From Desulfovibrio sp. JC010 (GTDB lineage: Bacteria; Desulfobacterota; Desulfovibrionia; Desulfovibrionales; Desulfovibrionaceae): a stretch of 64,000 bases of DNA. The DNA is taken from contig NZ_VOIQ01000003.1 of the NCBI RefSeq assembly GCF_010470675.1, forward strand, positions 62,001-126,000. Direction: 5' to 3'. Each line of letters starts with the position of its first letter. Positions within the stretch are counted from its first letter, which is position 1. The position numbers and the translations under genes were made by a program. This document shows, in pieces, positions 2,791 to 64,000 of this stretch. Below the pieces are notes generated by a model, which saw only the letters and a program-made list of their open reading frames with translations, had not been told where the DNA came from and did no database searches.

Positions 2791-3672
2791 ATGGAATTAT
2801 ATCAGATCAAGACATTCGTGGTGGTGGCCGAGGAAGGCAATATGACCCGGGCGGCCAAGCGTCTGCACGCCAGCCAGTCCACCATCAGCCTGCATATCAA
2901 GTCCCTTGAAGAAGAATTTGACCTGCGCCTTTTTCAGCGCACCCCCAAGGGCATGAGTCTCACACCGGAAGGCGTACTGCTGCTTGAGAAAGCCCGCGAC
3001 CTGCTCGATTGCGTGGAGAAATTCGAATCCGAAGCCCGTTCCATGAAGGGCGAACTTTCCGGCGAAGCACGCGTCGGCCTGCAAACCTCTCCTGTTTATC
3101 TGCGTACCCCGCAGCTCATCAAATTACTCAAAGAAAAATTTCCCGGACTTTCCCTGCGTCTGGTTCAGATGCCCACATGGACCATCCGCAGCGACATCGC
3201 CGCCCGCAAGCTGGACGGCGGCTTCTTTTATTCCAACTGCCCGCCTGATGAAGTGGACGGCATTCTGCTCGAAAATACCATCCTGCACGTGGTCGGCCCG
3301 GCTTCGTGGAAGGGGCAGATGAAAGATGCCAGCTGGGTGGATCTTTCCAAGCTGGACTGGATCTGGACCCCGGAGGAGTGTTCTTTCAACGTCAAGCTTG
3401 AAGAGACCTTTTCCTCCCGCGATCTTGAAGTCACCAAATCAATGATCGCCGACAGCGAGGATACCCACAACGCGCTGGTCAAGTCCGGCAACGGGATTAC
3501 TGTCATGCGTGCTGATGAGGCCGCCGAAGGTGTTGAGAAGGGCGAATTTTTCATATGGCCCGGCGGGCATATCGAAGTGGGTTTATATTTCGGCTTCCCC
3601 CGTAACAAAGCCGATGATCCTGTTGTTAGAGCCTTGCTCGACTGCGTTGAAGAAGTCTGGAAAAAGGCGTAG
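2791..3672 (+). CDS. LysR-family transcriptional regulator
   Basis: This 293-residue protein has the LysR N-terminal helix-turn-helix (residues 1-60: MELYQIKTFVVVAEEGNMTRAAKR, then SQSTISLHIKSLEEEFDLRLFQR). The effector-binding domain follows from about residue 90. It lies upstream of an FAD-linked oxidase and Fe-S protein pair on the same strand, so that pair is a plausible target, but this is inference. It is divergent from the small membrane protein gene at 2464-2622, and LysR proteins often control a divergent neighbour. No strong Shine-Dalgarno precedes the ATG. The stop codon lies at the left end of a repeat element. Confidence 0.9.
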   Translation: MELYQIKTFVVVAEEGNMTRAAKRLHASQSTISLHIKSLEEEFDLRLFQRTPKGMSLTPEGVLLLEKARDLLDCVEKFESEARSMKGELSGEARVGLQTSPVYLRTPQLIKLLKEKFPGLSLRLVQMPTWTIRSDIAARKLDGGFFYSNCPPDEVDGILLENTILHVVGPASWKGQMKDASWVDLSKLDWIWTPEECSFNVKLEETFSSRDLEVTKSMIADSEDTHNALVKSGNGITVMRADEAAEGVEKGEFFIWPGGHIEVGLYFGFPRNKADDPVVRALLDCVEEVWKKA

Positions 3673-3745
3673 CCCTAATAAAAGTTTTTGAAGAGTCCAG
3701 AGAAACTTTTTCCAAAAAGTTTCTTTGGCCCCCGGAGGGTCGCCG
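3671..3745 (+). repeat. Intergenic hairpin repeat, copy 1 (type A)
   Basis: The element begins GCCCTAATAAAAG, overlapping the LysR stop. Its hairpin has perfect 10-bp arms, GAAACTTTTT (3702-3711) and AAAAAGTTTC (3714-3723), and is followed by TTTGGCCCCCGGAGGG. Near-identical type A copies are at 9032-9114 and 55954-56057. It directly precedes the FAD-oxidase start, and its GGAGG lies 12 bases before that ATG. Confidence 0.85.
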
Positions 3746-3750
3746 AAGGC

Positions 3751-6340: not shown

Positions 6341-6420
6341 ATTTAGGGATTCCAAAGGGGATTATCCCCTTTGGCCGCCGGAGGCGAAATCCCATGACAA
6401 AAGCGCGAAGCGCATCAAAG
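6341..6420 (+). repeat. Intergenic hairpin repeat, copy 2 (variant hairpin)
   Basis: Hairpin arms CCAAAGGGGA (6352-6361) and TCCCCTTTGG (6365-6374) differ in sequence from types A and B but occupy the same place before GCCGCCGGAGGCG. An outer stem GGGATT (6346-6351) with AATCCC (6388-6393) encloses the block. The right module AAAAGCGCGAAGCGCATCAAA lies at 6399-6419. The element ends 13 bases before the secA start. Confidence 0.85.
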
Positions 6421-9031: not shown

Positions 9032-9114
9032 CGGAGCGGCGAAGACCCGATAAGAGTTTTTGAAGAGTCCAAAGAAACTTTTTTTTCAAAAAGTTTCTTT
9101 GGCCGCCGGAGGCA
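9032..9114 (+). repeat. Intergenic hairpin repeat, copy 3 (type A)
   Basis: GGCGAAGACCCGATAAGAG is followed by GAAGAGTCCAAAG and a hairpin with 10-bp arms (9074-9083 and 9088-9097). GGCCGCCGGAGGC comes next. It lies between the convergent ends of secA and the chemoreceptor gene. It therefore does not need to sit upstream of a start codon. Confidence 0.85.
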
Positions 9115-45642: not shown

Positions 45643-45655
45643 CAGCGAGGTATCC

Positions 45656-45820
45656 ATGCTCTATTCTGAAAGCGAAGCCAAATTTAAATACTGTCCCTAC
45701 CTTATGACCAGTGATGACAAGATGAAGTTTTGTCAGGGAACCATGTGTATGATGTGGCGTTACGCAGATGAAGATAAAGGTTATTGCGGGCTGGCCGGAA
45801 AGCCCGAAGAAAAGAAATAG
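45656..45820 (+). CDS. Cys-rich mini-protein (54 aa)
   Basis: This 54-residue protein has four cysteines at positions 13, 26, 31 and 44 (KYCPYL, KFCQGTMCMMWRY, GYCGLAG). The pattern suits a small zinc- or Fe-S-binding fold, or disulfides. GCGAGG lies 6 bases before the ATG. It has no signal peptide. It sits between the unknown exported protein and fliJ, 25 bases before fliJ. The function is unknown. A longer frame from 45620 has no ribosome site and overlaps the upstream gene. Confidence 0.65.
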   Translation: MLYSESEAKFKYCPYLMTSDDKMKFCQGTMCMMWRYADEDKGYCGLAGKPEEKK

Positions 45821-45845
45821 TCCTCCACGATGATCAATTCATAAT

Positions 45846-46893: not shown

Positions 46894-46955
46894 GCGAAGA
46901 CGTTTTAGTTGTGTTTCGCAGATTATTTTCAGTGACGGTCTTCGAATTAAAAAAA

Positions 46956-47057
46956 CAGCGAAGCTTATTAAAACGTTTTGGGATTCTTAAACCCTTTTGG
47001 AAAAGGGTTTAAGCCGCCGGAGGCGAACTCTTTTTATCAAAAGCGCATAGCGCATCA
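46956..47057 (+). repeat. Intergenic hairpin repeat, copy 4 (type B)
   Basis: GCGAAGCTTATTAAAACG is followed by TTTTGGGATT and a hairpin with perfect 13-bp arms, CTTAAACCCTTTT (46986-46998) and AAAAGGGTTTAAG (47001-47013). GCCGCCGGAGGCG comes next, and the right module AAAAGCGCATAGCGCATCAAA is at 47039-47059. It ends just before truA. Confidence 0.88.
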
Positions 47058-47070
47058 AATAATTCTTAAA

Positions 47071-49612: not shown

Positions 49613-51574
49613 TTAAAATTTAGCCGCAACAATGGTCCGTTCGTCAGCATCAAAGCGGAATTTCATGCGTGGGGTGGGCTTGCTGATCTGCACGGTTTTG
49701 CCGCCGATCTTGATTTCAACACCGGGATGAATTTTACGGTGTACACGGATGGAGAGCTGTTCCAAGGACTTGTAGTAATCGTGCAGTTCTTTGGACAGCT
49801 GCTTGCGGATTTCTTTCAGCTTTAGCTTGATGCGTCCACGGAGCACAAGAATCTGCTTCATCTGTTCCTGCTTGGCTGCAGGAGTGGATTTAAGAATGGT
49901 TTCATCGTCCCCCTGACCTATGGCTGAATTAATCTTCATCAGCCGCGCCCGCAGGGCGTCCCTTTCTTTGATCAGCTCTTTGTTGATTTTCTGTTTGGCT
50001 GAAATTCCGACAACTGTCTTTACTCCGATTTCCGAGCCGATTTCATTGGCTTCGATGCTGACTTCCGAGCTGACAATCCCGCCTTGGATAATTCCCTTGC
50101 CGCCTAAAGCACTGACCGGTCCTTTGCAGCGAATCATGCAATTGCTCATCTCATGCTTGATGATGATTTCATCGCCGCACTCAATGCGGGCATTGGATGC
50201 GAACTGAGCGGTAATAGTTCCTTTTGCCTTGGCAAGTCCTTTGCCGGACATAACCAGTCCGCCCTTGATTTCAATATCTCCCCCGGCAGTGACATTGGCT
50301 CCTTCTATGGAGTCCTTGACCACAACGTGGGCCGGGACTTCCACTGTGAATCCTTCCCTGATGGAACCGTTGACATGTACCGAGCCTTTTTCCAGCTTGA
50401 TATTCCCGGTGGAGTAATCCACGTCACCCTTTGTTTCCAGCACATCTTTGACCGCCAGAGTGTTGTCCTGAAAGTGAACAATTCCGGTGGCCGTGGCTTT
50501 GTAGGTGATGCCATCCGGCATAGGGGCAACATGGGCTCCGGTTTTTATTTCAAGGGGATTGCCGCCGGGCGGCGGGGTCAGCCTGCCGTAAACATCCTCG
50601 CCGGCTTTGCCTTCCACGGGCGGATGGATTTTGCCGATGATATCTCCGGGACTGACCATGGGATGGACCCCGCGATCCTTGAAATCAACCCGGTCATCTT
50701 CCCCGGTGGTGCCGATGGAGCAGGAAGTTGCTTCTTCGCGGTCATATTCAAAATATCCGTCCCTGCCGGGAACCGGTTCTGTTCCGGTTGCGATGACTGC
50801 TTCCTGAGCCACACCAGTTTCGCGGGCTTTTTTTATAGCGGTCTGCCCGGCCACGTGTTGCAGCGGGCGGGAAATTTCCATTGCTTCAAGGGCCGGTTCA
50901 AGGGCACCGAGATCGTACCTGACTCCAAAGCAGTCGTGGGCATAGAGTCTGGCCGAAACTTTCATCATGTCGGCCGAGACCTTGATCAACGGCTCTACCA
51001 TGACCTGCTGGTCTTGTATTTTGACCAGGCCGTAAATATCGGCAACAAGTTTTCTGCTTTCTGCATCAAGGGTGCAGTTGCGGTTATCTGCATCTGCAAG
51101 GGCAAGCGGCTTGGGGGTATGGGTCTCTTCGGCAGGAATTTCGTCGCCATCCAGATTTCTGCCGCATGATGCAGGGATCGCCTCACTAAGGGTGCCGAAT
51201 TCCATGTCCGGCATTACCGGAAAATTCAGGTCCGCGTCAGTGATGATCTGTCCGTCTATGGCATTCTGGGGATATATGGCCCGCACAAGGGCTACATTGA
51301 TGATGCTTTTGCCTTCCCCGGCCCTTTTCAGAGCGAACATGGCTCCGTCGTGGTCCAGTTCGCCGTTTATGCCGGAACGTTCCAGTTCGGATTTCATAAA
51401 TTCAAGGGAAAGAGGAGTTCCTTCCCCTTCCGCAGGGGTGTAGGAAGAAACAAAGGCAGCCATTTTATCCGGGGTGAGCTGGAATTCCAGCACGGCATCA
51501 CGGTTTTCAACAGCAGTATTGTTCTGCTTGTTGCGAAGGTCTGCTCCCCGTGCAGATGTCGCTTGCTCAGTCAT
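49613..51574 (-). CDS. DUF342 / FapA-like protein
   Basis: This 653-residue cytoplasmic protein contains the DUF342 (FapA) core: PVPGRDGYFEYD, VSPGDIIGKIHPPVEGKAGEDVYGRLTPPPGG and GNIKLEKGSVHVNGSIREGFTVEV. A right-handed beta-helix-like run of short repeats (residues about 360-500) follows. The C-terminus is a basic coiled coil (KELIKERDALRARLMK). FapA proteins affect flagellar assembly or polar localisation in some bacteria. The stop codon directly abuts that of the FliD-like gene, and no terminator is visible between them. Confidence 0.82.
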   Translation of the reverse strand: MTEQATSARGADLRNKQNNTAVENRDAVLEFQLTPDKMAAFVSSYTPAEGEGTPLSLEFMKSELERSGINGELDHDGAMFALKRAGEGKSIINVALVRAIYPQNAIDGQIITDADLNFPVMPDMEFGTLSEAIPASCGRNLDGDEIPAEETHTPKPLALADADNRNCTLDAESRKLVADIYGLVKIQDQQVMVEPLIKVSADMMKVSARLYAHDCFGVRYDLGALEPALEAMEISRPLQHVAGQTAIKKARETGVAQEAVIATGTEPVPGRDGYFEYDREEATSCSIGTTGEDDRVDFKDRGVHPMVSPGDIIGKIHPPVEGKAGEDVYGRLTPPPGGNPLEIKTGAHVAPMPDGITYKATATGIVHFQDNTLAVKDVLETKGDVDYSTGNIKLEKGSVHVNGSIREGFTVEVPAHVVVKDSIEGANVTAGGDIEIKGGLVMSGKGLAKAKGTITAQFASNARIECGDEIIIKHEMSNCMIRCKGPVSALGGKGIIQGGIVSSEVSIEANEIGSEIGVKTVVGISAKQKINKELIKERDALRARLMKINSAIGQGDDETILKSTPAAKQEQMKQILVLRGRIKLKLKEIRKQLSKELHDYYKSLEQLSIRVHRKIHPGVEIKIGGKTVQISKPTPRMKFRFDADERTIVAAKF

Positions 51575-51704
51575 GGATCACATTACCCGTGTATGCAGCA
51601 ATTGCCGTTAAGCCGGAATTGGAAAATATTTATTTATTAATTTACCCTATATTAGATTCAGTCAATGTTCAAATACTACTGATATAAGCTTTTTCGACAG
51701 TTTT

Positions 51705-52949
51705 TTATTTTGCTTTATGCATTACCCAGACCAGTTCTTCGAGCATGGAGAGGAGTTTTGCGTAAATTCCACCTGCTCCGGGAGGAGGACCGAAAAGTCC
51801 GTTGCGTTGCTCCTGCAATGCCTTGGGGAATATAGTATCAGGCTCAAGGGTGCGCATGGTCATGGCGAAACGTTCTGCGAGAAGATATCCGGTAACCCCT
51901 TCTTCAAAGACGTCCATGTATTTCATAAATTCATCTTTGCAGCTGTTCCATAATTCAATGGAAGCATCATTGGGATTGTGGGTGGTTACTTTGCAAATAA
52001 GTGCATAGAGGCTGTTTAATGCCGCGCCGGGAATACCGCGCCTCCAGCCAAGCAGCCACGGGTTGCGCCAGAAGAGCAGAAAATGTCCCTGTCCGGTGGC
52101 GATGATCTTTTCAAGGGATTTGCGTACTGAGACAAGGTCCGGGTCTTCCCATTCAATGGGGGTGTCGGCCAGTTCCCATGCCGGAAGAGTTGGCCGTTCC
52201 TGCGTTTCCTGTCCCTGCATGCAGTCGAGAATATGTGAAAGCCAGATATTGGCCTGCGGAGATGCGGGAGTTTCAAGGTGTGGGTAGCTGAGGATGAAAT
52301 TTCCTTTCCCGGTCTGTCCGGAAATCACAGCCGGACGGTCATGCAGAAATTCCGGCAGAAGGGATATTCCGTACATGTTCCGCCAGTCATTAAGGGTGCC
52401 TTCGGGAAGTGAATTGATGCACAGGTCGGCCACCCAGAAGTCGTTGCCCGGTTCGCGGTAACGGCCCAGTGCAGTTGTAGAGTCTCGCTCATTGGGAGAA
52501 AATTGTCCCGGCCACCAGACCGGAATAAGTGCGCTTTCACCAAGACAGTCCGGTACCAGCGGATTGGACTGGTCCAACTGAACGTTGATGTGTCCGCTTA
52601 AAAAATGATGCAGCCTGTTTTCAAAACCCTTGCGCTGCCAGCAGCTTAAGCCCAATCCTCCGGCATCGGACAATCCCAGTCCGGCTCCGCCGCAAAAACC
52701 GAGGTAGTTACCGCCCTCGCCTACATATTTCTGGACTTCGAGGATTCCCGGTCCGCCGAGGCGCATGGCCTTGCCTTTGGCCCAGCCGCCGGGAACGATA
52801 AGTGCCGCCGGAGGCTTGCCTGAAAGCAGTCCTTGCGCTATTTGATGCCCACGCACCAGTTCGTGGTCGATGTTCCATGCTTCAAGGGCTCTTTTTACCA
52901 GCAGTCCCCAGATGTGGGAGTCGTCCCATAATATATAGATACTTGACAT
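51705..52949 (-). CDS. BPL_N-domain (glutamine-amidotransferase-like) protein
   Basis: This 414-residue cytoplasmic protein resembles the N-terminal domain of biotin-protein ligases and class I amidotransferases. Early motifs are IYILWDDSHIWGLLVKRALEAW and ALIVPGGWAKG. The nucleophile-elbow-like NYLGFCGGAGLGLSD carries a Cys near residue 85. A helical C-terminal region follows, rich in Trp and Leu. The actual substrate is unknown. It reads away from valS, with a shared 230-base intergenic region. Confidence 0.72.
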   Translation of the reverse strand: MSSIYILWDDSHIWGLLVKRALEAWNIDHELVRGHQIAQGLLSGKPPAALIVPGGWAKGKAMRLGGPGILEVQKYVGEGGNYLGFCGGAGLGLSDAGGLGLSCWQRKGFENRLHHFLSGHINVQLDQSNPLVPDCLGESALIPVWWPGQFSPNERDSTTALGRYREPGNDFWVADLCINSLPEGTLNDWRNMYGISLLPEFLHDRPAVISGQTGKGNFILSYPHLETPASPQANIWLSHILDCMQGQETQERPTLPAWELADTPIEWEDPDLVSVRKSLEKIIATGQGHFLLFWRNPWLLGWRRGIPGAALNSLYALICKVTTHNPNDASIELWNSCKDEFMKYMDVFEEGVTGYLLAERFAMTMRTLEPDTIFPKALQEQRNGLFGPPPGAGGIYAKLLSMLEELVWVMHKAK

Positions 52950-53012
52950 GTTCGTGTCTCTTTATAAGTGTGTGTAGCGCAAGTTGACGAGGCGGGTGCT
53001 TCTGTCTGTGAC

Positions 53013-53131
53013 CCCTGACCCGTAAATACACGGAAAATCAGGGCAGGCAAAGCACATCTTTTTTAAAAAATATTATTATAAAACCAACTTAGCATAAATT
53101 ACGCATCGGGAAGCCGGGAAACGGTGACCCG
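53013..53131 (+). other. Structured leader upstream of valS
   Basis: Two hairpins are visible. At 53013-53043, CCCTGA pairs with TCAGGG and an inner CCGT pairs with ACGG. At 53107-53131, CGGG pairs with CCCG and encloses CCG-GGAAA-CGG with a 3-by-3 internal loop. No T-box signature is present. They could be transcription attenuators or protein-binding elements in the 5' leader. Confidence 0.35.
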
Positions 53132-53179
53132 CTATGTGTTCTTTTGCTTAAGAATTTATATTTGAACAGGAGTCCTTAC

Positions 53180-55834
53180 ATGGCGGAATCAAATCTCCCC
53201 AAAGGTTATGAACCTTGGGATGTAGAAAAAAAGTGGCTTGACCACTGGGAAGAAAACAAGACCTTCACCCCCGATCCCGAAGCAGACGGCGATCCTTACT
53301 CCATCGTGATTCCGCCGCCCAACGTCACCGGTGTGCTGCATATGGGCCATGCCCTGAACATCACCCTGCAGGATATCCTCTGTCGCTACCAGCGTCAGCA
53401 GGGCAAGAACGTTCTTTGGGTTCCGGGCACCGACCATGCAGGCATCGCCACCCAGAACGTTGTTGAGCGTCAGCTCAAGACCGAAGGTAAGACCCGTGAC
53501 GACCTCGGCCGTGAGAAATTCATCGAGCGCGTCTGGGAATGGAAGGAAGAGAAGGGCGGCCATATCCTCAAGCAGATCCGCCGCATGGGCGCATCCGTAG
53601 ACTGGGACCGCGAGTGCTTCACCTTTGATGAAGATCGCGCCAAGGCTGTACGCAAGGTTTTCGTTCAGCTTTACGAAGAAGGTCTCATCTACAAAGGCAA
53701 CTACATCATCAACTGGTGTAACCGCTGCCACACCGCCCTTGCTGATGACGAAGTGGAACACTCCCCCAAACCGGGCCATTTCTACAATCTCAAGTATAAG
53801 CTTTCCGACGGTTCCGGCGAACTGACCATCGCCACCACCCGTCCCGAAACCATGCTCGGCGATACCGCCATCTGCGTTAACCCCGAAGATGACCGCTACA
53901 AGCATCTCATCGGCAAGACCGCGATCCTGCCCATCGTAGGACGCGAACTGCCCATCATCGGTGATTCCTACGTAGACATGGAATTCGGTACCGGTGCGCT
54001 GAAGGTTACTCCCGCTCACGACATGAATGACTGGGAACTGGGCCGCAAGCATAACCTTGAAGTTATTTCCGTGTTCGACGAAGACGGCAACATCAATGAA
54101 AACGGTCCTGAGAAATATCAGGGCATGTACAAGGACGATTTGCGCAAGGTTATCGTTGAGGACCTCAAAGCTGAAGGCTACCTCATCTCCATCGATGATC
54201 ACGAGCATTCCGTGGGTGAATGTTATCGCTGTAAATCCACCATCGAGCCGCATGTTTCCGAACAGTGGTTTGTGGCTATGAAGCCGCTGGCTGAAAAAGC
54301 CCGCGCCGCTGTTCCTTCCGAAACCAAAATTTTCCCTAACAACTGGGAAAAGGTCTACTACGAGTGGCTGGACAACATCCGCGACTGGTGCATCTCCCGT
54401 CAGATCTGGTGGGGACACCGTATCCCGGCTTGGACCTGTGAAGAGTGCGGCGAACTCATTGTTTCCAATGAAGATCCCAGCAAGTGTACCAAGTGCGGTT
54501 CTTCCAAGCTTACTCAGGAAGAAGACGTACTTGATACCTGGTTTTCTTCCGCTCTCTGGCCTTTCTCCACTCTGGGCTGGCCTGAAGAGACTCCGGAACT
54601 TGCCAAGTACTACCCCACATCCGTGCTGATCACCGGATTCGACATTCTTTTCTTCTGGGTCGCACGCATGATGATGATGGGTATCCACTTTCAGGACCAG
54701 ATTCCTTTCCACCACGTTTACATTCACGCCCTTGTGCGTGACGAACACGGCAAGAAGATGTCCAAGTCCACCGGTAACGTCATCGATCCGTTGGAAATGT
54801 CCGACAAGTACGGTACTGACGCCCTGCGTTTTACCCTTACTTCCTTTGCCGCCATGGGCCGCGATATCAAGCTTTCCGAGCAGCGCATTGACGGTTATCG
54901 CAACTTCGTGAACAAAATCTGGAACTCCGCACGTTTCGCGCTCATGAACCTCGACGGCAAGAAGCCTGAAGCGTCCCTCGAAGATGCATCCGGCCTCGCC
55001 AACGAGTGGATTCTGCACCGTCTCGAAGAAGTCAAGGACACCATGCGCGAAGCAGTGGAAGCCTACCGCTTCAACGAAGTGGCCCAGACCATGTACAGGT
55101 TCATCTGGAACGAGTTCTGTGACTGGTATCTCGAAATGATCAAGCCGGATCTTTACAGCGACGATGCAAGCCGCAAAGACGCAACCCTGAAGGTGCTCTG
55201 GACCGTTCTTTCCGAGACCATGGTCCTGCTGCACCCGACCATGCCTTTCGTCACTCAGGAAATCTGGTCTGTACTGCCCGGAATTGAGAACAACGACATC
55301 GCCACCGTTGCTTACCCTGAAAAGCGCGACAACTGCCGCAATGAAAAAGCCATCGCAGATATGGAACTTTTTCAGGGTCTTGTTTCCGCCGTACGTAACA
55401 TCCGTACCGAGCTGATCATTGCTCCTTCCAAGAAGCTGGAGCTCATCGTGCGCACTGCCAATGAGCAGTCCGCCGCGCTGATCAACGACAACATCGATCT
55501 GTTTAAAGCTCTGGCCCGTCTGGACAGCGTAACCGCAGGTCCCGACGCAGAAGGTCCCAGCGCATCCGGTACCGCAGTTGTGCAGGGTAACGAACTCTTC
55601 GTACCTCTCGCAGGCGCAGTGGACTTCGAGTCCGAACTTGCCCGTCTGGACAAGGAATTCGCCAAGCTGGACAAAGATCTCGTAATAATCGAAAAGAAAC
55701 TTTCCAACAAAGGCTTTGTCAGCAACGCTCCCGCAGCTGTTGTGGAAAAAGAAAAAGCCCGCTTGGAAGAGATTAACGATAAGAAAGCAAAGCTTACCGA
55801 GCTGAAAGATCGTCTCGTAAGCGTAATGGAATAG
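53180..55834 (+). CDS. valS: Valyl-tRNA synthetase
   Basis: ValS charges tRNA-Val with valine. The 884-residue enzyme has the class I motifs PPPNVTGVLHMGHALN and KKMSKSTGNVIDP. It has the editing domain signature TTRPETMLGDTAICVNPED and ends in a tRNA-binding coiled coil (LDKEFAKLDKDLVIIEKKL). A Zn-type site CEECGELIVSNEDPSKCTKCG is visible. ATG 53180 has Shine-Dalgarno AGGAG; a longer frame from 53144 is not supported. Confidence 0.97.
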   Translation: MAESNLPKGYEPWDVEKKWLDHWEENKTFTPDPEADGDPYSIVIPPPNVTGVLHMGHALNITLQDILCRYQRQQGKNVLWVPGTDHAGIATQNVVERQLKTEGKTRDDLGREKFIERVWEWKEEKGGHILKQIRRMGASVDWDRECFTFDEDRAKAVRKVFVQLYEEGLIYKGNYIINWCNRCHTALADDEVEHSPKPGHFYNLKYKLSDGSGELTIATTRPETMLGDTAICVNPEDDRYKHLIGKTAILPIVGRELPIIGDSYVDMEFGTGALKVTPAHDMNDWELGRKHNLEVISVFDEDGNINENGPEKYQGMYKDDLRKVIVEDLKAEGYLISIDDHEHSVGECYRCKSTIEPHVSEQWFVAMKPLAEKARAAVPSETKIFPNNWEKVYYEWLDNIRDWCISRQIWWGHRIPAWTCEECGELIVSNEDPSKCTKCGSSKLTQEEDVLDTWFSSALWPFSTLGWPEETPELAKYYPTSVLITGFDILFFWVARMMMMGIHFQDQIPFHHVYIHALVRDEHGKKMSKSTGNVIDPLEMSDKYGTDALRFTLTSFAAMGRDIKLSEQRIDGYRNFVNKIWNSARFALMNLDGKKPEASLEDASGLANEWILHRLEEVKDTMREAVEAYRFNEVAQTMYRFIWNEFCDWYLEMIKPDLYSDDASRKDATLKVLWTVLSETMVLLHPTMPFVTQEIWSVLPGIENNDIATVAYPEKRDNCRNEKAIADMELFQGLVSAVRNIRTELIIAPSKKLELIVRTANEQSAALINDNIDLFKALARLDSVTAGPDAEGPSASGTAVVQGNELFVPLAGAVDFESELARLDKEFAKLDKDLVIIEKKLSNKGFVSNAPAAVVEKEKARLEEINDKKAKLTELKDRLVSVME

Positions 55835-55839
55835 CTTAT

Positions 55840-55953
55840 AGCCTCCGGCGGCCCTTCGGGGACCCTGCCGGGGGCCTTAAACCCTTTTCCAAAAGGGTTT
55901 AAGAATCCCAAAACGCTTTATTAGGGCTTCGCCGCTTTAATGCGCTAAATGCG
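55840..55953 (-). repeat. Intergenic hairpin repeat, copy 5 (type B, minus orientation)
   Basis: Read on the minus strand it runs GCGGCGAAGCCCTAATAAAGCG, then GGGATT, then hairpin arms CTTAAACCCTTTT/AAAAGGGTTTAAG (55876-55903). A short GGCCCCCGGCAGGGTCCCCG insert with its own GGCCC/GGGCC stem precedes GCCGCCGGAGGC. It begins a few bases after the valS stop and faces away from copy 6. Confidence 0.88.
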
Positions 55954-56057
55954 ACAGCCTATTAAAAGTTTTTGAAGAGTCCAGAGAAACTTTTTTCAAA
56001 AAGTTTCTTTGGCCGCCGGCGGCGAAATCAATTCGTCAAAAGCGCATAGCGCATCAA
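55954..56057 (+). repeat. Intergenic hairpin repeat, copy 6 (type A)
   Basis: ACAGCCTATTAAAAG precedes GAAGAGTCCAGAG, hairpin arms GAAACTTTTT (55986-55995) and AAAAAGTTTC (55998-56007), and GGCCGCCGGCGGCG. The right module AAAAGCGCATAGCGCATCAAA lies at 56038-56058. It directly precedes cobA-hemD and is arranged head-to-head with copy 5. Confidence 0.88.
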
Positions 56058-56085
56058 ATTGCCTTTAACCAGAGAGGGTTCAAAT

Positions 56086-57594
56086 ATGGGTTTGGTATAT
56101 CTGATTGGAGCTGGACCGGGTGATCCGGGGCTGTTGACTGTTAAAGCTAAAGAAGTCTTGGAAACAGCGGATGTGCTTATCTACGACTACCTGGCAAACA
56201 TTGAATTTCTGAACTACTGCAAAGCTGATTGCGAAATTTTGTACGTAGGTAAAAAAGGCGGCGACCACACCCTGCCGCAGGATAAAATCAACGAACTCAT
56301 CGTTGAGAAAGCCAGCGAAGGCAAAGTCATCGCCCGCTTGAAAGGCGGCGATCCCTATGTCTTTGGTCGCGGCGGCGAAGAAGCTGAAGAGCTGGTCGAA
56401 GCCGGAATCGACTTTGAAGTCATTCCCGGTATCACTGCTGGTGTTGCTGCACCCGCTTACGCAGGTATCCCGGTAACCCACCGCGATTTCACCACCTCCG
56501 TATGCTTCATCACCGGACACGAAGATCCCACCAAGGAAAAGTCCGGTCACAACTGGGCCGTTTACGCTAAATCCACCAGCACCCTCGTTTTCTACATGGG
56601 CGTGAAAAACCTGCCCATGATCGCGGAAAACCTGATCAAGAACGGACGTGATCCCGAAACTCCGGTGGCCCTCGTTCGCTGGGGTACCCGCTGCAACCAG
56701 CAGTCTTTTGTCTCCACCCTCGAAAATGTTGCCGAGGAAGCAAAAGAGCGCAAGTTCAAGGCTCCTTCCATCATCGTTGTGGGCGGCGTCTGCTCTCTGC
56801 ATGACAAGTTGGCATGGTTTGAGAAGAAACCCCTGCTCGGGAAAGGCGTTGTGGTTACCCGCGCCCGTGAACAGGCCAGCGGTCTTGTTTCCACTCTCGG
56901 CAAGCTCGGTGCCTGCGTGCATGAGTTCCCGACCATCAACATCGAGCCAGTTGCTGATTACTCCGACGTTCAGGCCGAGATCAAAGGGCTGTCCAGCTGG
57001 GATTGGCTGATTTTCACTTCCGTGAACGGCGTGAAACATTTCTTCAGCCAGATGGACGAAGCAGGTCTCGACGCCCGCGCTTTTGCCGGAATCGAAATCG
57101 CCGCCATCGGACCCGCCACTGCTGACGCGCTGGTCGAAAAAGGCATCAAGCCTGATTTCGTACCTGAAAAGTACGTTGCCGAGGGCGTTGTTGCCGGGCT
57201 GCTCGAAAAGGGCATCAAGGGCAAGAAAGTACTCATCCCGCGTGCCAAGATCGCCCGCGAAGTGCTGCCCGAAGAGTTGCGCAAGGCCGGAGCAGAAGTT
57301 AAAATCCTGCCCGTCTATGAGACCGGACTTTCCGAGAACGATCCCGGTCCCATTGCCGAGGCCCTCGAAGCCGGAAAGATCGATTACCTGACTTTCACCA
57401 GCTCCAGCACAGTTGAAAACTTCTTCAATCTAATTGAGCCGGAAGTTTTCCATAAATACAAAGACAGTGTAAAAATCGCCTGCATCGGGCCCATCACCGC
57501 CAAGACCCTCGAAGGGTTTGGTTATGAGCCGGATATCCAGCCCGAAGATTACACCATCCCCGCACTGGTAGATACTCTGGTGCAGGAAGCATAG
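56086..57594 (+). CDS. cobA-hemD: Fused uroporphyrinogen-III methyltransferase / uroporphyrinogen-III synthase
   Basis: This 502-residue fusion carries two activities of siroheme, cobalamin and heme-d1-type tetrapyrrole synthesis. The N-terminal SUMT domain has VYLIGAGPGDPGLLT, RLKGGDPYVFGRGGEE and the GVAAPAYAGIPVTHR loop. The C-terminal HemD domain (about residues 250-500) has GKGVVVTRAREQASGL, WLIFTSVNGVKHFF and FTSSSTVENF. Sulfate reducers need siroheme for sulfite reductase, which fits the window. The Shine-Dalgarno GAGGG lies 6 bases before the ATG. It is flanked by two divergent repeat pairs. Confidence 0.96.
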   Translation: MGLVYLIGAGPGDPGLLTVKAKEVLETADVLIYDYLANIEFLNYCKADCEILYVGKKGGDHTLPQDKINELIVEKASEGKVIARLKGGDPYVFGRGGEEAEELVEAGIDFEVIPGITAGVAAPAYAGIPVTHRDFTTSVCFITGHEDPTKEKSGHNWAVYAKSTSTLVFYMGVKNLPMIAENLIKNGRDPETPVALVRWGTRCNQQSFVSTLENVAEEAKERKFKAPSIIVVGGVCSLHDKLAWFEKKPLLGKGVVVTRAREQASGLVSTLGKLGACVHEFPTINIEPVADYSDVQAEIKGLSSWDWLIFTSVNGVKHFFSQMDEAGLDARAFAGIEIAAIGPATADALVEKGIKPDFVPEKYVAEGVVAGLLEKGIKGKKVLIPRAKIAREVLPEELRKAGAEVKILPVYETGLSENDPGPIAEALEAGKIDYLTFTSSSTVENFFNLIEPEVFHKYKDSVKIACIGPITAKTLEGFGYEPDIQPEDYTIPALVDTLVQEA

Positions 57595-57600
57595 TTACTA

Positions 57601-57633
57601 AAATGGAGGACCCTTGCGGTCCTCCATTTTTTT
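57601..57633 (+). terminator. Intrinsic terminator of cobA-hemD
   Basis: ATGGAGGACC (57603-57612) and GGTCCTCCAT (57618-57627) pair around a 5-base loop and are followed by T7. Confidence 0.93.
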
Positions 57634-57634
57634 A

Positions 57635-57724
57635 TGCCTCCGGCGGCCCTGCCGGGAGCCTCAAACCCTTTTGGGAAAAGGGTTTAAGAATCCCAAAACT
57701 TTTTATTAGGGCTTCGCCGAGAAG
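57635..57724 (-). repeat. Intergenic hairpin repeat, copy 7 (type B, minus orientation)
   Basis: On the minus strand it runs GGCGAAGCCCTAATAAAAAG, GGGATT, hairpin arms CTTAAACCCTTTT and AAAAGGGTTTGAG (one U-G pair; 57660-57688), a CTCCCGGCAGG insert and GCCGCCGGAGGC. It lies just after the terminator and faces away from copy 8. Confidence 0.87.
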
Positions 57725-57768
57725 TTTAGAGTTAGAACCAAATATTATGACGGTCTTTGCTAACGTAG

Positions 57769-57805
57769 CGACAGCTTATTAAAAGTTTCTTTGGCCCCCG
57801 GAGGG
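57769..57805 (+). repeat. Intergenic hairpin repeat, copy 8 (deletion derivative of type A)
   Basis: ACAGCTTATTAAAAG is joined directly to TTTCTTTGGCCCCCGGAGGG, so the left hairpin arm is missing. This is what deletion between the two AAAAGTTT copies of a full type A element would give. GGAGG (57800-57804) is the ribosome binding site for purN, whose TTG starts 5 bases later. Confidence 0.8.
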
Positions 57806-57809
57806 AATC

Positions 57810-58484
57810 TTGAGTCTTCCTATTGCCGTACTTATTTCTGGTAGCGGATCAAATTTACAATCCATTATTGAAAAAATGGAAGACAACATCCTTGATGTAG
57901 ACATCAAAGTTGTTCTTTCCAATAAAGCTGATGCTTACGGCCTGAAGCGGGCCGAAGCTTACGGCATCCCCACTGCGGTTTTGAGCCATAAGGATTTCGG
58001 TCCCCGCGAGGAATTTGACGCAGAGATGGTGCGGATTCTCAAAGAGGCCGGGGTGGAAGCCGTGGTTATGGCCGGATTCATGCGCATTATTACTCCGGTA
58101 TTTCTGAATGCTTTCCCCGGTAAAATTGTGAATATCCATCCGGCAATTCTGCCCAGCTTTCCCGGTGTGGACGGGCAGGGCGATGCTGCCAAATACGGCG
58201 TGCAGCTGGCCGGGTGCACCGCCCATTTTGTGGATGAGAAAATGGACCACGGGGCCGTGATCATTCAGGCAGCGGTACCCGCCTATCCCGGCGAAGATGA
58301 GGACGAACTGCGCGAACGTATTCTTAAGCAGGAACACCGTATTCTGCCGCAGGCTGTGCAGTGGCTGGCAAAGGATAGATTGTCCGTGGAAGGGCGGTTT
58401 GTGAAGCTTGCTGAAGCTGATGTGGATTTGGCTGAGACGGATGGGTTGAGTTTGATCAATCCGCCATTGGAAGTCGGATTTTAG
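57810..58484 (+). CDS. purN: Phosphoribosylglycinamide formyltransferase PurN
   Basis: PurN adds a formyl group to glycinamide ribonucleotide in purine synthesis. The 224-residue protein has IAVLISGSGSNLQSIIE near the start and the catalytic NIHPAILPSFPGVDG. HFVDEKMDHGAVIIQ completes the family pattern. The start is the uncommon TTG 57810, with GGAGG from the preceding repeat 5 bases away. A rho-independent terminator lies at its end. Confidence 0.94.
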   Translation: MSLPIAVLISGSGSNLQSIIEKMEDNILDVDIKVVLSNKADAYGLKRAEAYGIPTAVLSHKDFGPREEFDAEMVRILKEAGVEAVVMAGFMRIITPVFLNAFPGKIVNIHPAILPSFPGVDGQGDAAKYGVQLAGCTAHFVDEKMDHGAVIIQAAVPAYPGEDEDELRERILKQEHRILPQAVQWLAKDRLSVEGRFVKLAEADVDLAETDGLSLINPPLEVGF

Positions 58485-58494
58485 AAGATTTTAG

Positions 58495-58537
58495 AGGACC
58501 ATTTTTCTGGCATCAGGAAAATGGTCCTTCGTTTTTT
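58495..58537 (+). terminator. Intrinsic terminator after purN
   Basis: AGGACCATTTT and AAAATGGTCCT form the main stem with inner CTG/CAG pairs around GCAT. TTCGTTTTTT follows. It overlaps the stop codon of the convergent gene at 58536. Confidence 0.85.
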
Positions 58538-59960
58538 ACGGCACCGAATTATTCACACAAGTTTTATACTTATCCGCCCGCACAAATCCTGTTGAGCAGC
58601 GGTAACCGTGCCAGTTTGTTTCGGTGATGGGCGAGCGCGGACTGCCTGAATAGTAATATTGGATGTAGGACGTCTTATCTTCACCGCCTAATGCCAGAGA
58701 ATTTGAAAGTGCCGCCATGCTTGGGGCTGTGGCATTGCTTAAGTTGTATTGCGTTGTGAATTTGTATTCCTGACTGAATTTTTCACTGCTTTGATCCAGC
58801 CGCAGGGCTTGCGCCGTGTAGTCCTGAAGTTCCCAGTTTTCTATATTGACGTTGAAAACCTTGTACGCGGGGTTGTTCTCAAAAACAGGTGATATGGCCG
58901 GCTGTCCCAGTACTGTGGCCGGAGTGTTGCTGCGCGCGTCGTTGTATATCAGCCGGAATTCATCCATATGCGTGTGTCCGGAAAAGAAGGTTATGCTCAG
59001 GTTTGGGTAGGCTTCCATGATGGCCAGAAAGCGGGTCTGGTATCCATCGTGCCACATATCATCCACGTCCGCGATCCTGCCCTGTGCATCCATGTGGTTG
59101 GCAATGGTGCTGTAGATGTTGGTCCCCGGCGGTACGTGGGTTACAACGTAAACCTGCTGGCCGCTGTTTTGGGCGGCGGCAAGCTGCTCTTCAAACCAGT
59201 CCAGCTGGATGTATGCCGCATCCCCGGCCACCGGGGCGGGACGGTGGGTGGTAAAGAGCACTGAATTTAAGCTGACAAGCCGGATGCTCTTTTTACTTAC
59301 GGATGCCGTGTAGTAGCCGCCTGCTTTGTAACTCTGGTTGAAAGTCGAGCTTTGTACCCAGTCGTCCAGCCATTGGTTTTTAAACAGATCCGCAGTCTCC
59401 GCCAGAAAATCCCCGCCAGCCACCAGATCATAATCTCCGGCATAGGAATCGTTATTGCCGAGGGTGAACAGCACCGGGGCGTCTATGAATCGTTCCCGGA
59501 CTTGCAGCACAAAGAAACGCACGGTTTTCATGATGAATGATTCCAGCGCATCCTGATCAACCGAGCCGTAAAGGTTGTCAAAAGTGGTTTTGAAGTTATG
59601 GCAGAGAATGTCGCCGGGGAAGATGACCACTGCAGGATTGGCATCATGACTCGTAGCGGAATCAAGGGCTTTGCTGAGCAGGGTGAAGTTGCTTTCTTCG
59701 CCGTAAGCGGGCAGTGCCGTTTTGGTCGAGCTTTGAAAAATTTCGTCCCAGTCTTCTGCCGGGGCGGCAACAAGACGGTCAAAGAGGGTTGTGTCGTCAA
59801 AAGGGTTGAAGTGGACGTCGCTGATGGCGATAAATGTTGAAGGGGCGGCTGTGCCGCAGCCTTTGTTGTTCCCCAGCAGGAAGGGCAGCAGCAAAACCAG
59901 CATTACTGCACATAAATGCAGTTTCGGCAGGGATTTTGTTGCAGCCCGGTCCGAAAACAT
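58536..59960 (-). CDS. Exported metallophosphoesterase, acid-sphingomyelinase-like
   Basis: This 474-residue protein has an N-terminal hydrophobic segment (LCAVMLVLLLPFLLG) followed by KGCGTA. The Cys is not in a standard lipobox. The calcineurin-like motifs follow in order: SDVHFNPFDDT, FPGDILCHNF, TLGNNDSYAGDYD, VTHVPPG and FFSGHTHMDEF. These match secreted ASM-like phosphodiesterases. It lies 3 bases downstream of the APH-type kinase gene. The start is ATG 59960; a TTG directly before it would only add one residue. Confidence 0.8.
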   Translation of the reverse strand: MFSDRAATKSLPKLHLCAVMLVLLLPFLLGNNKGCGTAAPSTFIAISDVHFNPFDDTTLFDRLVAAPAEDWDEIFQSSTKTALPAYGEESNFTLLSKALDSATSHDANPAVVIFPGDILCHNFKTTFDNLYGSVDQDALESFIMKTVRFFVLQVRERFIDAPVLFTLGNNDSYAGDYDLVAGGDFLAETADLFKNQWLDDWVQSSTFNQSYKAGGYYTASVSKKSIRLVSLNSVLFTTHRPAPVAGDAAYIQLDWFEEQLAAAQNSGQQVYVVTHVPPGTNIYSTIANHMDAQGRIADVDDMWHDGYQTRFLAIMEAYPNLSITFFSGHTHMDEFRLIYNDARSNTPATVLGQPAISPVFENNPAYKVFNVNIENWELQDYTAQALRLDQSSEKFSQEYKFTTQYNLSNATAPSMAALSNSLALGGEDKTSYIQYYYSGSPRSPITETNWHGYRCSTGFVRADKYKTCVNNSVP

Positions 59961-59963
59961 CAA

Positions 59964-60872
59964 TTACCCCATCACCGCCAAAAGCAGCTCCATAAATTCC
60001 AGTTCCATCTCCAGCATTTCATGATCCTTTTTACGCAGCCATTCGGAAAGCCATGCAAAGCGCAGGGAGGGTATGTAGGCGGGCAGTGATTCGTAACTGT
60101 CGTCACTGATGTCTGTGTTGTCGTAGAGGCCGTCCATGAAGGCCGGGATGAGTCCTTCGCCCAGTGCGCCGGGATTTTCAAAGGCCACGCAGCCGATCAT
60201 GTTGGCTACGTCGTAGATTTCCGGGCGCAGGCCGGAAAATTCCCAGTCGATGACCGCGCCGATTTTTTTGCCTTTCCAGAGCACGTTCAGCGGATGAAAA
60301 TCACCGTGGCAGAAAGCCTTGGGCAGTTGCGGGAATTGCTCCATTTTCGGGAAAAGGTGGGCGCAGATCGGTTCCAGCCGTTTGTAGATCTGCGGTTCAC
60401 GCTCCTTGACGGTAGCGGCAAGCTCGCGGGCGTAATTGATCAGCGCGAAAGACTGGTCCTGTCCGTGCATTTCCTTACCCTTGCTGTGCTCGCGCAATTG
60501 GGCAATAAATTTGGCCAGTTCTGTGCCCCGCTGGGCATCAAAAACATATTGCGGGCGGGGCAGTTCGTCTGATTCATAAAAAGGCGAGAGCTGCCAAGGG
60601 AAGCCCATGATCTCGGCAATGACCTGACCGTCCTTTGTCTCCTGATAAGGCAGCAGCCAGTCCATGCCGGATTTCTGCAAAGTGAGCAGGTTTTCGGCAA
60701 TGGCGGCGCGGCTTTTTTGCTGCGTCCCGGCTATACGCTCCATGAGCCAGAGTCGGTTCTCTGTATCCTCAATCACCGAGCGCGAAATTGCCCGCTCCGG
60801 GCTGCCGGGAATATTTTTATCGTTGTGGCGTTCAAGGGTAGTCAGACCCCATGGGGAGAGAGCATCGAGCAT
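59964..60872 (-). CDS. APH-family (aminoglycoside phosphotransferase-like) kinase
   Basis: This 302-residue cytoplasmic kinase-like protein has the Brenner motif FCHGDFHPLNVLW (catalytic Asp in HGD) and the metal-binding VIDWEFSGLRPE. No ATP-binding glycine loop is obvious at the N-terminus. APH-fold enzymes phosphorylate small molecules such as homoserine, choline or antibiotics, and the substrate here cannot be inferred. It forms an operon with the metallophosphoesterase. Confidence 0.82.
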   Translation of the reverse strand: MLDALSPWGLTTLERHNDKNIPGSPERAISRSVIEDTENRLWLMERIAGTQQKSRAAIAENLLTLQKSGMDWLLPYQETKDGQVIAEIMGFPWQLSPFYESDELPRPQYVFDAQRGTELAKFIAQLREHSKGKEMHGQDQSFALINYARELAATVKEREPQIYKRLEPICAHLFPKMEQFPQLPKAFCHGDFHPLNVLWKGKKIGAVIDWEFSGLRPEIYDVANMIGCVAFENPGALGEGLIPAFMDGLYDNTDISDDSYESLPAYIPSLRFAWLSEWLRKKDHEMLEMELEFMELLLAVMG

Positions 60873-60887
60873 GGCAAAACCTCACAG

Positions 60888-60934
60888 GCAAGGCGGCGAA
60901 GCCTTGATAAAAGTTTCTTTGGCCACCGGAGGCA
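60888..60934 (+). repeat. Intergenic hairpin repeat, copy 9 (deletion derivative)
   Basis: GGCGGCGAAGCCTTGATAAAAG joins directly to TTTCTTTGGCCACCGGAGGC, lacking the left hairpin arm, as in copy 8. It lies between the AMMECR1 and APH-kinase genes on the strand opposite to both. Confidence 0.78.
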
Positions 60935-60936
60935 TC

Positions 60937-61491
60937 TTAAAATACTTCTGCCTCAAACCAGAAAATATTGGTTGCCGGGTCCTGCCATGCCGTGGGTTCC
61001 ATGCCTGCTTTCTGGCAGGTCTGGGCGAGGAATTGGTCGCGGTCCCATTTCCAGTCCACGGCCACCTGCGGCAGAAGAAGTCCGGTTTGCTGGCCGCGTT
61101 GCATGATCAGGCCGTGCCGCCCGATTGTGATTTTATCTGTATCGGGACAGAGGCTGATGGGACTGAGGATGGAAATTTCTATTTCAACTTCCTCGAACTC
61201 GGCTTCGCTCAGTGGCGGAAAACGGGGGTCTTCAAAAGCGGCGGCGCGGGCCATTTTCCAGATGGTTTTGTAGAGCGGTCCGGTTCCCTGCACGTTTCCG
61301 ATGCAGCCGCGCAGATGTCCGTTTTTGTTCAGGGTCACGAAGGCCCCGAAGTTTTCGCGCAGATGTTCGGTTACAGGTTCGGGAATGGCTTCCTCCTGCT
61401 TGTTCAAGCGGCAGAGGATGGATTTGCGGACCAGACCTTTGAGGTAGTCCTTTTCTTCCTGAGTCAGGGTGAAACTGAAATTTTCTGACAT
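60937..61491 (-). CDS. AMMECR1-domain protein
   Basis: This 184-residue protein has the AMMECR1 hallmark LRGCIGN (residues 59-65) and the preceding FGAFVTLNKNGHLRGC. PRFPPLSEAEFEEVEIEISILSP and PQVAVDWKWDRDQFLAQTCQKAG follow. In many bacteria AMMECR1 is found with MEMO1 and a radical SAM enzyme, but neither is present here. The biochemical role is unknown. A Cys-rich domain gene lies 13 bases upstream on the same strand. Confidence 0.87.
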   Translation of the reverse strand: MSENFSFTLTQEEKDYLKGLVRKSILCRLNKQEEAIPEPVTEHLRENFGAFVTLNKNGHLRGCIGNVQGTGPLYKTIWKMARAAAFEDPRFPPLSEAEFEEVEIEISILSPISLCPDTDKITIGRHGLIMQRGQQTGLLLPQVAVDWKWDRDQFLAQTCQKAGMEPTAWQDPATNIFWFEAEVF

Positions 61492-61504
61492 TGGTTCTCC
61501 GGAG

Positions 61505-61750
61505 TTATTTCTCGTTGGCTTCTTTAAGCTTTTTGATGATGTAATCGTAGCCTTCGGGCCGGTGCGGAATTTTGCAGTCCGTGCAGTCTTTCACTCCTTT
61601 GGCGGTTATCTTGAACCGTCCTCCGCAATCTTCCAGCAGATAGAGCGGGCAGAAGCAGAACAGGCAGTTGAAGGATGTTTCGTCGCTGGTTTTATGACAG
61701 GGGAAGTATTTGCAATCTATATTTCTAAAAAAACGGTGACTGTTTTCCAT
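61505..61750 (-). CDS. Cysteine-rich small domain protein (81 aa)
   Basis: The protein has many cysteines and aromatic residues. It opens with HRFFRNIDCKYFPCHK, continues NCLFCFCPLYLLEDCGG and ends with DCTDCKIPHRPEGYDYI. This matches the cysteine-rich small domain family (often with cobalamin-related or AMMECR1-type genes). The cysteine pairs suggest a metal-binding fold. It is co-directional with AMMECR1. Confidence 0.8.
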   Translation of the reverse strand: MENSHRFFRNIDCKYFPCHKTSDETSFNCLFCFCPLYLLEDCGGRFKITAKGVKDCTDCKIPHRPEGYDYIIKKLKEANEK

Positions 61751-61768
61751 ATGTAGTCCTTAAAGCAA

Positions 61769-61805
61769 CCGTTGGTTTATAAACCAAAGCGGCGAAGCGC
61801 ATCAT
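61769..61805 (+). repeat. Intergenic hairpin repeat, copy 10 (partial)
   Basis: A short hairpin TTGGTTTATAAACCAA is followed by AAAGCGGCGAAGCGCATCATG, close to the right module of copies 2, 4 and 6. The GCCGCCGGAGGC block is absent. It lies between the PP2C phosphatase and the Cys-rich gene. Confidence 0.6.
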
Positions 61806-63943: not shown

Positions 63944-64000
63944 AGTTTCTGGTATTTTTTTGCCGGATATGTATTTGGAGTCAGTTCAAAAAATAATGCG

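Follow-up and report, generated by a model that had tools for sequence, protein, structure and literature searches.

The intergenic hairpin repeats of Desulfovibrio sp. JC010 (G000) are, in our reading, probably structural repeats acting at the DNA level, with a sequence code for an intrastrand triple helix in which a leader on the 5' side of each hairpin would serve as the third strand. An earlier note on the window, i.e., the whole 64,000-nucleotide stretch that was analysed (G000:C3:62001-126000), had described at least ten copies of a mosaic hairpin family. This observation is confirmed as real, and it is larger than reported: pattern and sequence inspection found the described features at all ten sites, seven of which hold full elements, while the other three (57769-57805, 60888-60934 and 61769-61805) turned out to be deletion remnants. 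The positions given for the copies were correct as well; those at 55840-55953 and 57635-57724 lie on the minus strand. The elements and remnants of the window, labelled by the arm types introduced below, are the following:

3671..3750, plus strand: T1 element with leader, hairpin (3697-3728) and modules CCC(GGA)GGG and GCC(GAA)GGC that reach the called start codon at 3751
6341..6420, plus strand: T4 element with leader TTTAGGGATT, hairpin 6352-6374 (CCAAAGGGGA), GC module and tail GCGC(GAA)GCGC
9032..9114, plus strand: T1 element with leader, hairpin (9069-9102) and a GC module adjoining the stop codon of the convergent gene
46956..47057, plus strand: T3 element with tail; putative third strand TTTTGGGATT (46976-46985), arms AAACCCTTTT (46989-46998) and AAAAGGGTTT (47001-47010), ten ungapped triads
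55840..55934, minus strand: T3 element that makes up the left side of an inward-facing pair, with its GC modules against the valS stop codon; putative third strand TTTTGGGATT (55904-55913), arms 55891-55900 and 55879-55888
55951..56057, plus strand: T1 element, right half of this pair, with leader, hairpin (55981-56012), GC module and a tail GCGC(ATA)GCGC that precedes the cobA start region
57635..57724, minus strand: T3 element that was once the left member of a pair and lies behind a terminator-like hairpin (57600-57630); putative third strand 57689-57698, arms 57676-57685 and 57663-57672
57769..57805, plus strand: remnant whose hairpin is deleted, with the leader joined to the right arm
60888..60934, plus strand: remnant of leader plus right arm, with the same kind of deletion as at 57769
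61769..61805, plus strand: remnant in which the leader GGCGAAGC is fused to the tail GCATCATG

To size the family, we sampled 861.5 kb of the 4.39-Mb genome (C1:1-420000, the whole of C2 and the window) and catalogued 105 hairpin elements, which we sorted by arm type. Where three arm types had been distinguished before, our patterns separate seven (T3, 46; T1, 21; T2, 15; T6, 11; T4, 9; T5, 2; T7, 1), these counts resting on patterns of our own with two or three mismatches allowed. Read in its own direction, an element runs through leader, left arm, short loop, right arm and GC modules, followed in some copies by a tail such as AAAAGCGC-GAA-GCGCATCAAA. Depending on the copy, the leader takes the form GGCGAAGCC-CTAATAAAAG-TTTTTGAAGAGT, or TTTTGGGATT and others, and the GC modules are GGCCGCCGGAGGC, CCCCCGGAGGG and CGCCGAAGGC. 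A copy number above chance, which the earlier note had proposed as a check, was borne out across the 4.39-Mb genome, with 162 matches to GGCCGCCGGAGGC and 176 to the T3 hairpin TTAAACCC, compared to 0 in either reversed control. Rfam gave no match in the window at gathering score, and nothing near gathering in 55700-57900. Among the papers listed in literature searches, judged by titles and the beginnings of abstracts, none was seen to describe the family, though the ITxF database or further papers might still list it; the word 'Desulfovibrio' is absent from the main texts of PMC4666352, PMC2817692 and PMC3733652.

The proposal that structure, and not sequence alone, is under selection was supported by the pairing of the arms. 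At sites chosen by leader and GC module alone, without demanding any pairing, own arms scored 7.81 over 9 positions, compared to 6.00 for re-dealt right arms (maximum 6.28 of 200) and 5.46 for arms of other types. Thirty of the 125 anchored sites paired at fewer than 7 of 9 positions; we read 26 of these as chance anchors and four as elements with a misplaced right anchor. Among 70 non-T6 hairpins, which were found by pairing, there were 24 distinct arm pairs. Against this, the covariance fold of a MAFFT alignment (A1, 81 of 82 prepared copies) showed little covariation and gave just 6 pairs, 3 of them with double changes. We ascribe this to the misregistration of arm types in that alignment and therefore used base-anchored counts. 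The statement that every arm type pairs perfectly was nearly right, except that most T1 and T2 stems retain one G.T wobble. On the plus strand, stem wobbles were G.T in 26 cases versus A.C in 2, a count that favours G.T given that the hairpin search penalised it less, and most of these are one ancestral T1/T2 wobble. For the seventh copy (57635), the reported arm change exists on one side (A->G) and results in a T.G wobble; there is no double change.

Two-sided changes were also seen in the tails and modules when orthologous sites were compared. At the valS-cobA site, the tail reads GCGC(GAA)GCGC in G001 versus GCGT(GAA)ACGC in G003, an alignable double change, while ACGC(GAA)GCGT in G007 is reached by a one-base deletion plus a substitution and the G000 tail differs from that of G001 in the loop alone. 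Likewise, the right-end module at the moeA site is GCC(GGA)GGC in G001 and G003, and GTC(GGA)GAC in G000 and G007. Of 62 loosely anchored tail sites, many of which are chance matches in genes, 22 were GCGC/GCGC; five further tails stay paired through two-sided changes (ACGC/GCGT twice, GCAC/GTGC, GTGC/GCAC and GCGT/ACGC), and a few tails, that of G010 among them, are now unpaired. At two loci of a Pseudodesulfovibrio MAG (MC-09; L027 and L033), the tail is CCGCC(AAA)GGCGG and not GCGC(GNA)GCGC, so that the hairpin is kept with another stem.

The loops of the mini-hairpins are polar. On the plus strand, G..A loops outnumbered T..C loops by 123 to 1 among 171 right-module loops, by 41 to 1 among 60 leader mini-hairpin loops and by 31 to 0 among 55 tail loops (the search windows of right modules and tails overlap), compared to 38 versus 29 in element-free intergenic regions (n=322). 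The middle of the loop varies (GAA, GGA, GTA, GCA, GATA, GGTA, GACA, GCCA), and the window's own tails, with the loop ATA, are an exception to the G..A rule. The C(GNA)G loop family and the d(GCGAAGC)-type mini-hairpins are known from oligonucleotide chemistry. In the available part of PMC10527192, this type has the loop and closing C-G pair of the GGC(GAA)GCC and GCGC(GAA)GCGC modules; unlike these oligonucleotides, the mini-hairpins described here are conserved parts of genomic repeats.

Read backward, the leader resembles the left arm, as seen for T3 (TTAGGGTTTT and AAACCCTTTT), T1 (GAGAAGTTTTT and GAGAAACTTTTT) and T6 (GGGGTAGGGG and GGGGAAGGGG), following a code in which arm G is matched by G, C by G, A by A or T, and T by T. 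The code was drawn from the G000 types together with a few of the named loci, prior to scoring 123 distinct leader/arm pairs, which came from 78 G000 elements and, in the named loci, 106 sites. Here, own pairs reached a score of 5.93 versus 3.92 for re-dealt pairs (sd 0.16, maximum 4.38 of 300), with 7.03 versus 4.35 in G000 and 5.47 versus 4.21 in the named loci. Of the other relations between leader and arm, complement (z 6.5) and direct (z 3.6) were likewise above re-dealing, though less strongly; z was 8.5 for mirror identity and 0.0 for the reverse complement. When a single random member was kept per arm cluster (20, 9 or 7 clusters), the median p was 0.010, which is the floor of 100 shuffles, and the largest p was 0.010, 0.030 and 0.020, respectively. 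In an alignment that gave no credit for C, arm C stood opposite leader G 65 times, C twice, A twice, T once and a gap 87 times; arm G was opposite G 324 times, arm A opposite T 182 and A 157 times, and arm T opposite T 124 times. The leader T-run also equalled the right-arm A-run in 72 of 79 parsed elements, compared to a mean of 41.1 after re-dealing (maximum 53 of 2000).

As a C turned to G within a mirror repeat cannot be produced by copying, this code suggests selection on DNA structure, which distinguishes the third strand from the arms, and the mirror-symmetric leader points to an intrastrand triplex of the PIT/TM kind. The linkage of leader and arm could reflect descent, given about 7-20 independent arm clusters, but descent gives no reason for a mirror code. 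We also considered that neutral template switching at quasi-palindromes might perfect the hairpins without selection. Such switching could make the arms of inverted repeats perfect and their runs equally long, and the recurrent deletions in the family suggest slippage. Yet template copying makes direct or inverted repeats and not mirror repeats with C->G, leader and arm show no reverse-complement relation (z 0.0), and the loops hold G..A while their middle varies. We consider this explanation very improbable.

In an alternate-strand triplex, the third strand lies antiparallel over the left-arm purines in A*A.T, T*A.T and G*G.C triads (reverse Hoogsteen), and over the pyrimidine part it runs parallel to the right-arm purines in Hoogsteen T*A.T and G*G.C triads. 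G over G in the parallel orientation is a weak triad, and it is needed over the CCC part. In line with a triplex of this design, 10-11 perfect ungapped triads were found in 39 of the 46 T3 elements, including all three T3 copies of the window with ten each. Three adjacent blocks obeying the code, by which PIT/TM motifs are defined, are thus present in 39/46 T3 elements, and over all types jointly through the leader code. The 59 non-T3 elements gave no perfect ungapped run of 7 triads in our finder and fit the triad code just when a bulge, a mismatch or a longer stem is allowed: one base must bulge out in T1 and T2, and the T6 stem overruns the loop limit of the finder. In 126.6 kb of intergenic sequence, a sequence-blind search for alternate-strand motifs (at most one mismatch) returned 48 hits versus 2.3 after first-order resampling; 43 of the 48 lay in elements (39 in T3, 4 in T4) and 5 elsewhere.

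In the structure that we propose, the left and right arms would pair as a hairpin on one DNA strand, and the leader would fold from the 5' side of the hairpin into its groove as third strand, an arrangement that PMC4666352 calls class I. This strand would follow the antiparallel purine code over the left-arm purines and then cross over to the right arm (T/A, G/G). Next to the triplex lie the GC mini-hairpins, whose loops are C(GNA)G or C(GNNA)G, and part of the copies also have the GCGC hairpin tail. Such a structure may arise in single-stranded or supercoiled DNA, where it would stall replication and provoke slippage and repair, and the copies would multiply as non-autonomous elements. A simple cruciform, one of the options in the earlier note, accounts for only part of the pattern, because the leader changes together with the arms in the manner of a third strand.

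Motifs of this kind have been described before. According to the accessible text of PMC4666352 (Holder et al. 2015), BoxC, PIT and TMECO are intergenic, without strand bias and partly in inverted pairs; they are unevenly distributed between relatives, sit at unstable loci and show no promoter or terminator activity. The same text reports TMECO from 262 proteobacterial genomes and states that the E. coli TMECO triplex formed in vitro, while in vivo DMS footprinting gave no support. As far as the available text goes, PIT/BoxC/TMECO and the present family share three consecutive blocks with one-strand triplex potential, known here from sequence, as well as intergenic placement, lack of strand bias, inverted pairs, a copy number that is very uneven between close relatives, variable and often deleted loci, and the absence of a known mobile carrier. 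By that account, the differences are that the third strand lies on the 5' side here (class I), whereas TMECO is class II, and that, unlike TMECO, the present family has GNA mini-hairpins and a tail attached and comes from records of several phyla. Moreover, the arms switch strand here, purine then pyrimidine, whereas the published finder, as described there, wants a homopurine duplex strand, and for this reason the published class I rule, as re-implemented by us, misses most elements: with a stem of 8 it found four T4 elements only, and with a stem of 6 it gave 22 hits, 5 of them in elements, versus 13 after resampling. The ITxF homopurine class I definition does not cover arms that mix purine and pyrimidine blocks, as those of T1-T3 do. 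In sequence, the family is unrelated to TMECO: the published TMECO/BoxC consensus pattern had 0 exact matches in the 861.5 kb, and we file the family as a putative variant of the intrastrand triplex motif kind that is separate from TMECO.

The placement of the elements bears on whether they might act in RNA. With genes called by a simple script of our own, 1 of the 105 elements lay inside a called gene and 2 at contig edges, and the other 102 fell between convergent (34), codirectional (61) or divergent genes (7). Gaps of at least 60 bp amount to 12.8 kb (convergent), 51.7 kb (codirectional) and 30.2 kb (divergent); convergent gaps, with 13.6% of the intergenic bases, hold 34/102 elements, and divergent gaps, with 31.9%, hold 7/102. 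Among the tail-less copies, 43 of the 55 that face a stop codon have their GC end at most 11 nt from it, and 12 of the 20 that face a start codon have theirs at most 12 nt away; 27 copies have a tail and one lacks a recognised module. Both the excess in convergent gaps and the proximity to stop codons would be expected of bidirectional terminators or of 3' UTR hairpins that protect or end mRNAs. However, codirectional copies show no orientation bias (28 sense versus 33 antisense; 16 versus 20 for unpaired copies alone), terminator-like hairpins already stand beside or between many elements, orthologous sites can be empty, and the mirror code would, in its purine part, make no sense for an RNA. 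In addition, a terminator scan of 44.5-64 kb picked no full element, although it also missed the evident terminator at 57600-57630. A function in RNA is therefore unlikely. Intrinsic terminators, with a GC hairpin followed by a U tract, are an unlikely identity for the elements, with the caveat that the scan of 44500-64000 was blind to the terminator at 57600-57630. The RNA-level selection that the earlier note had allowed for found no support either, given the 28 sense and 33 antisense copies and the statement in the available text of PMC4666352 that a purine-motif triplex, which part of the code spells, cannot form in RNA. As transcription direction is random relative to the folded strand, DNA is a likelier target of the constraint than RNA. 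Local GC skew around the elements was without bias (53 versus 52), and folding energies weakly preferred the plus strand with DNA (71 versus 28) and RNA parameters (67 versus 37; n=104).

At some gene borders, the elements contribute short signals. The module GGAGG at start codons can provide a possible Shine-Dalgarno sequence, and the GGAGGG ending the 57769-57805 remnant may be the candidate Shine-Dalgarno of the next gene. At 57790-57815 of the window, the GGAGG in the start region of the gene after cobA belongs to the end of the element in G000, G016 and G001; in the element-free G011 and G006, this gene has a GGAG of its own. The TGA (61802-61804) of the neighbouring minus-strand gene lies within the element tail in G000 and is tail-borne in G007 too; in G016, which is empty at 61.8 kb, the C-terminus of this gene differs.

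Many elements are arranged in pairs. All 18 neighbours less than 400 bp apart were ordered minus-then-plus, with the leaders inward, compared to 7 of 28 neighbours at 400-3500 bp; 36/105 elements belong to close pairs. These inward-facing pairs yield inverted-repeat ends and the sites vary in presence and absence among relatives, as would be seen for a MITE, a miniature DDE-type transposon with terminal inverted repeats. Target duplication was inconsistent, though (none in 9 of 15 pairs and unlike matches of 3-7 nt in the other 6), the genes between seven wider minus/plus pairs included no transposase by eye, 69/105 elements stand outside close pairs, and the ends are modular, which makes a MITE origin improbable. 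A MITE with target duplication was rejected on the 9/15 pairs without a direct repeat and the 6/15 with unlike ones. In partial accounts of MITEs and enterobacterial intergenic repeat units, these too are short, non-coding and intergenic with inverted ends in pairs; unlike MITEs as described there, the present family has no consistent target duplication, has modular ends, and no parent element was found. In some pairs, a terminator-like hairpin tipped by AATATC..GATATT stands between the two elements, and 7 of 25 loose matches to this tip lie within 200 bp of an element. The terminator-like hairpins by C1:29074, C2:28291, C2:49945, C2:218740 and C2:348206 of G000 have the common tip AATATC....GATATT on unlike stems, and at C1:315911 the relatives carry quite different terminators.

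The earlier note had named a known transposon terminus as a possible explanation of the copy number. This is not so as far as examined, i.e., in searches for Y1 and Y2 transposases and in plasmid and phage collections. The family shares with REP sequences a high but uneven copy number, intergenic placement, an inverted-pair layout and stem changes that compensate each other (available portions of PMC2817692 and PMC3733652), and the elements might thus be palindromic repeats of the REP/BIME kind, moved in trans by a RAYT (Y1 tyrosine) transposase, with a structurally idle leader. Y1 genes do occur in 9 of 20 element-bearing genomes, but Y1_Tnp (PF01797) is absent from G000 and from 11 of the 20, and six Y1 loci (in G007, G003, G021 and G002) had no GC-core match nearby with 1 mismatch allowed, several of them being cut by contig ends, which makes this view partial. 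Of 81 hairpin feet, one carried a GT(A/G)G head and none carried CGTC, and a RAYT-driven origin leaves the leader code unexplained; we find it as unlikely as a function in RNA. RAYT-driven REP identity was rejected on the lack of PF01797 in G000 and the head motif counts of 1/81 and 0/81. The likeness to REP/BIME/REPIN, so far as the same portions of these two papers describe them, extends to small intergenic high-copy palindromes, inverted dimers and compensatory stem changes, and the differences are the near absence of GTAG (1/81) and CGTC (0/81), the lack of a RAYT found in the genome, the larger multi-hairpin layout and the third strand. An IS91-type Y2 transposase (PF04986), present in 2/20 genomes and with no match in G000, was rejected as mobiliser, as was carriage by plasmid or phage, since neither collection held a family match.

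Close kin gain, swap and lose elements quickly, and orthologous sites are empty, swapped or partly deleted. At valS-cobA, a minus-strand T3 is followed by a plus-strand T1 in G000 and G003, T2 in G007 and a T2-like element in G001; a terminator with one plus-strand T3 is present in G016 and G009, and the terminator only in G010; CobA of these six relatives is 96-99% identical. Further off, G015 has elements and G011 and G013 have T4-like relics at this site, where no element is visible in G002, G004, G005, G006, G008, G012 and G014. The moeA site holds pairs in G000 and G003, one copy in G001, GC-module remnants only in G007 and G016, and nothing in G010. As to the remnants of the window, the 57769 site is a full element with a T2-type arm in G003, the 60888 site a T3 element in G010 and a T3/T6 pair in G007 and G016, and the 61769 site is full in G007 and G003 and empty in G016 and G010. 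Hairpin loss by joining of leader and right arm was seen at G000 57769, G000 60888 and G001 cobA-purN. In genus-wide pattern counts, T3 copies numbered 176 in G000, 85 in G007, 40 in G016, 25 in G003, 23 in G015, 22 in G010, 12 in G009 (at 84% completeness), 11 in G001 and 0 in G002; across G000, G007, G016, G003, G010 and G001, the identity to the G000 CobA is 96-100%. Stalling, slippage and repair at a folded triplex would explain the hairpin loss, the in-place arm swaps and the variable gene borders, and we infer that the triplex causes the turnover.

Relatives of the family occur in records of other phyla. The exact 16-mer TTTGGCCGCCGGAGGC was found at at least 119 loci, and as this end was fixed by the query, the leader and arms alone were free to vary. 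Among the matches listed, a hairpin of at least 9 bp ends at TTTGG in 69 of 79 sites from records whose titles mostly point to relatives of Desulfovibrio, and in 27 of 38 sites of other-phylum records (Aminicenantes/Acidobacteriota, Bacillota, ADurb/UBP15/USMO, UBA2562, Lentisphaeria and SAR324), compared to 46 of 1016 independent control TTTGG sites. A class of matches expected by chance gave 0/18, but it was drawn up after seeing the sequences and is no blind control. The arms differ by lineage, with the leader following them: Lentisphaeria has the arm AAAGATGG with the leader GGAGATT, and SAR324 has AAAGGAG with GAGGATT. In 26 such whole genomes, the 16-mer occurs 1 to 132 times (reversed control at most 1), e.g., 46 and 103 times in two Aminicenantes, 25 in Selenomonadaceae, 19 in Oscillibacter and 63 in UBA2562; most of the other-phylum genomes are metagenome bins, so that some titles may be wrong. 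Seven other-phylum loci compared with Rfam matched just an SRP RNA and two tRNAs.

A wider and more speculative reading, which we hold only tentatively and regard as rather doubtful, is that of a previously undescribed cross-phylum selfish DNA. Its unit of selection would be the alternate-strand triple helix, with arms and third strand changing together, and each lineage (Desulfovibrionales, Aminicenantes, Oscillospiraceae, Selenomonadaceae, Lentisphaeria, UBA2562 and others) would have its own arm-plus-leader code under shared ends. Spread to gene borders might then occur by recombination or replication that recognises the triplex and the GNA hairpins, without a Y1 or Y2 transposase.

For the family as such, the many arm types tracked by a third strand would be evolutionary evidence for a DNA triple helix, as mirror symmetry is not made by copying, and the question whether such repeats are selected for the triplex itself becomes directly testable with short oligonucleotides. 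The family also reshapes gene borders fast, supplying a stop codon or a possible Shine-Dalgarno at some sites, with turnover between sister species.

Two minor observations concern the surroundings of the repeats. In G059, an Aminicenantes MAG, several contigs start no more than a few tens of bases away from the 16-mer, and the repeat may thus break assembly. In G000, a second repeat of the CCGTAAGACTCG...CTCGCCTAACGGC type lies in or beside elements at C2:277188-277512 and C1:228418-228752 (L163 and L141), and repeats of this type are also present at the orthologous gaps of G003 and G015.
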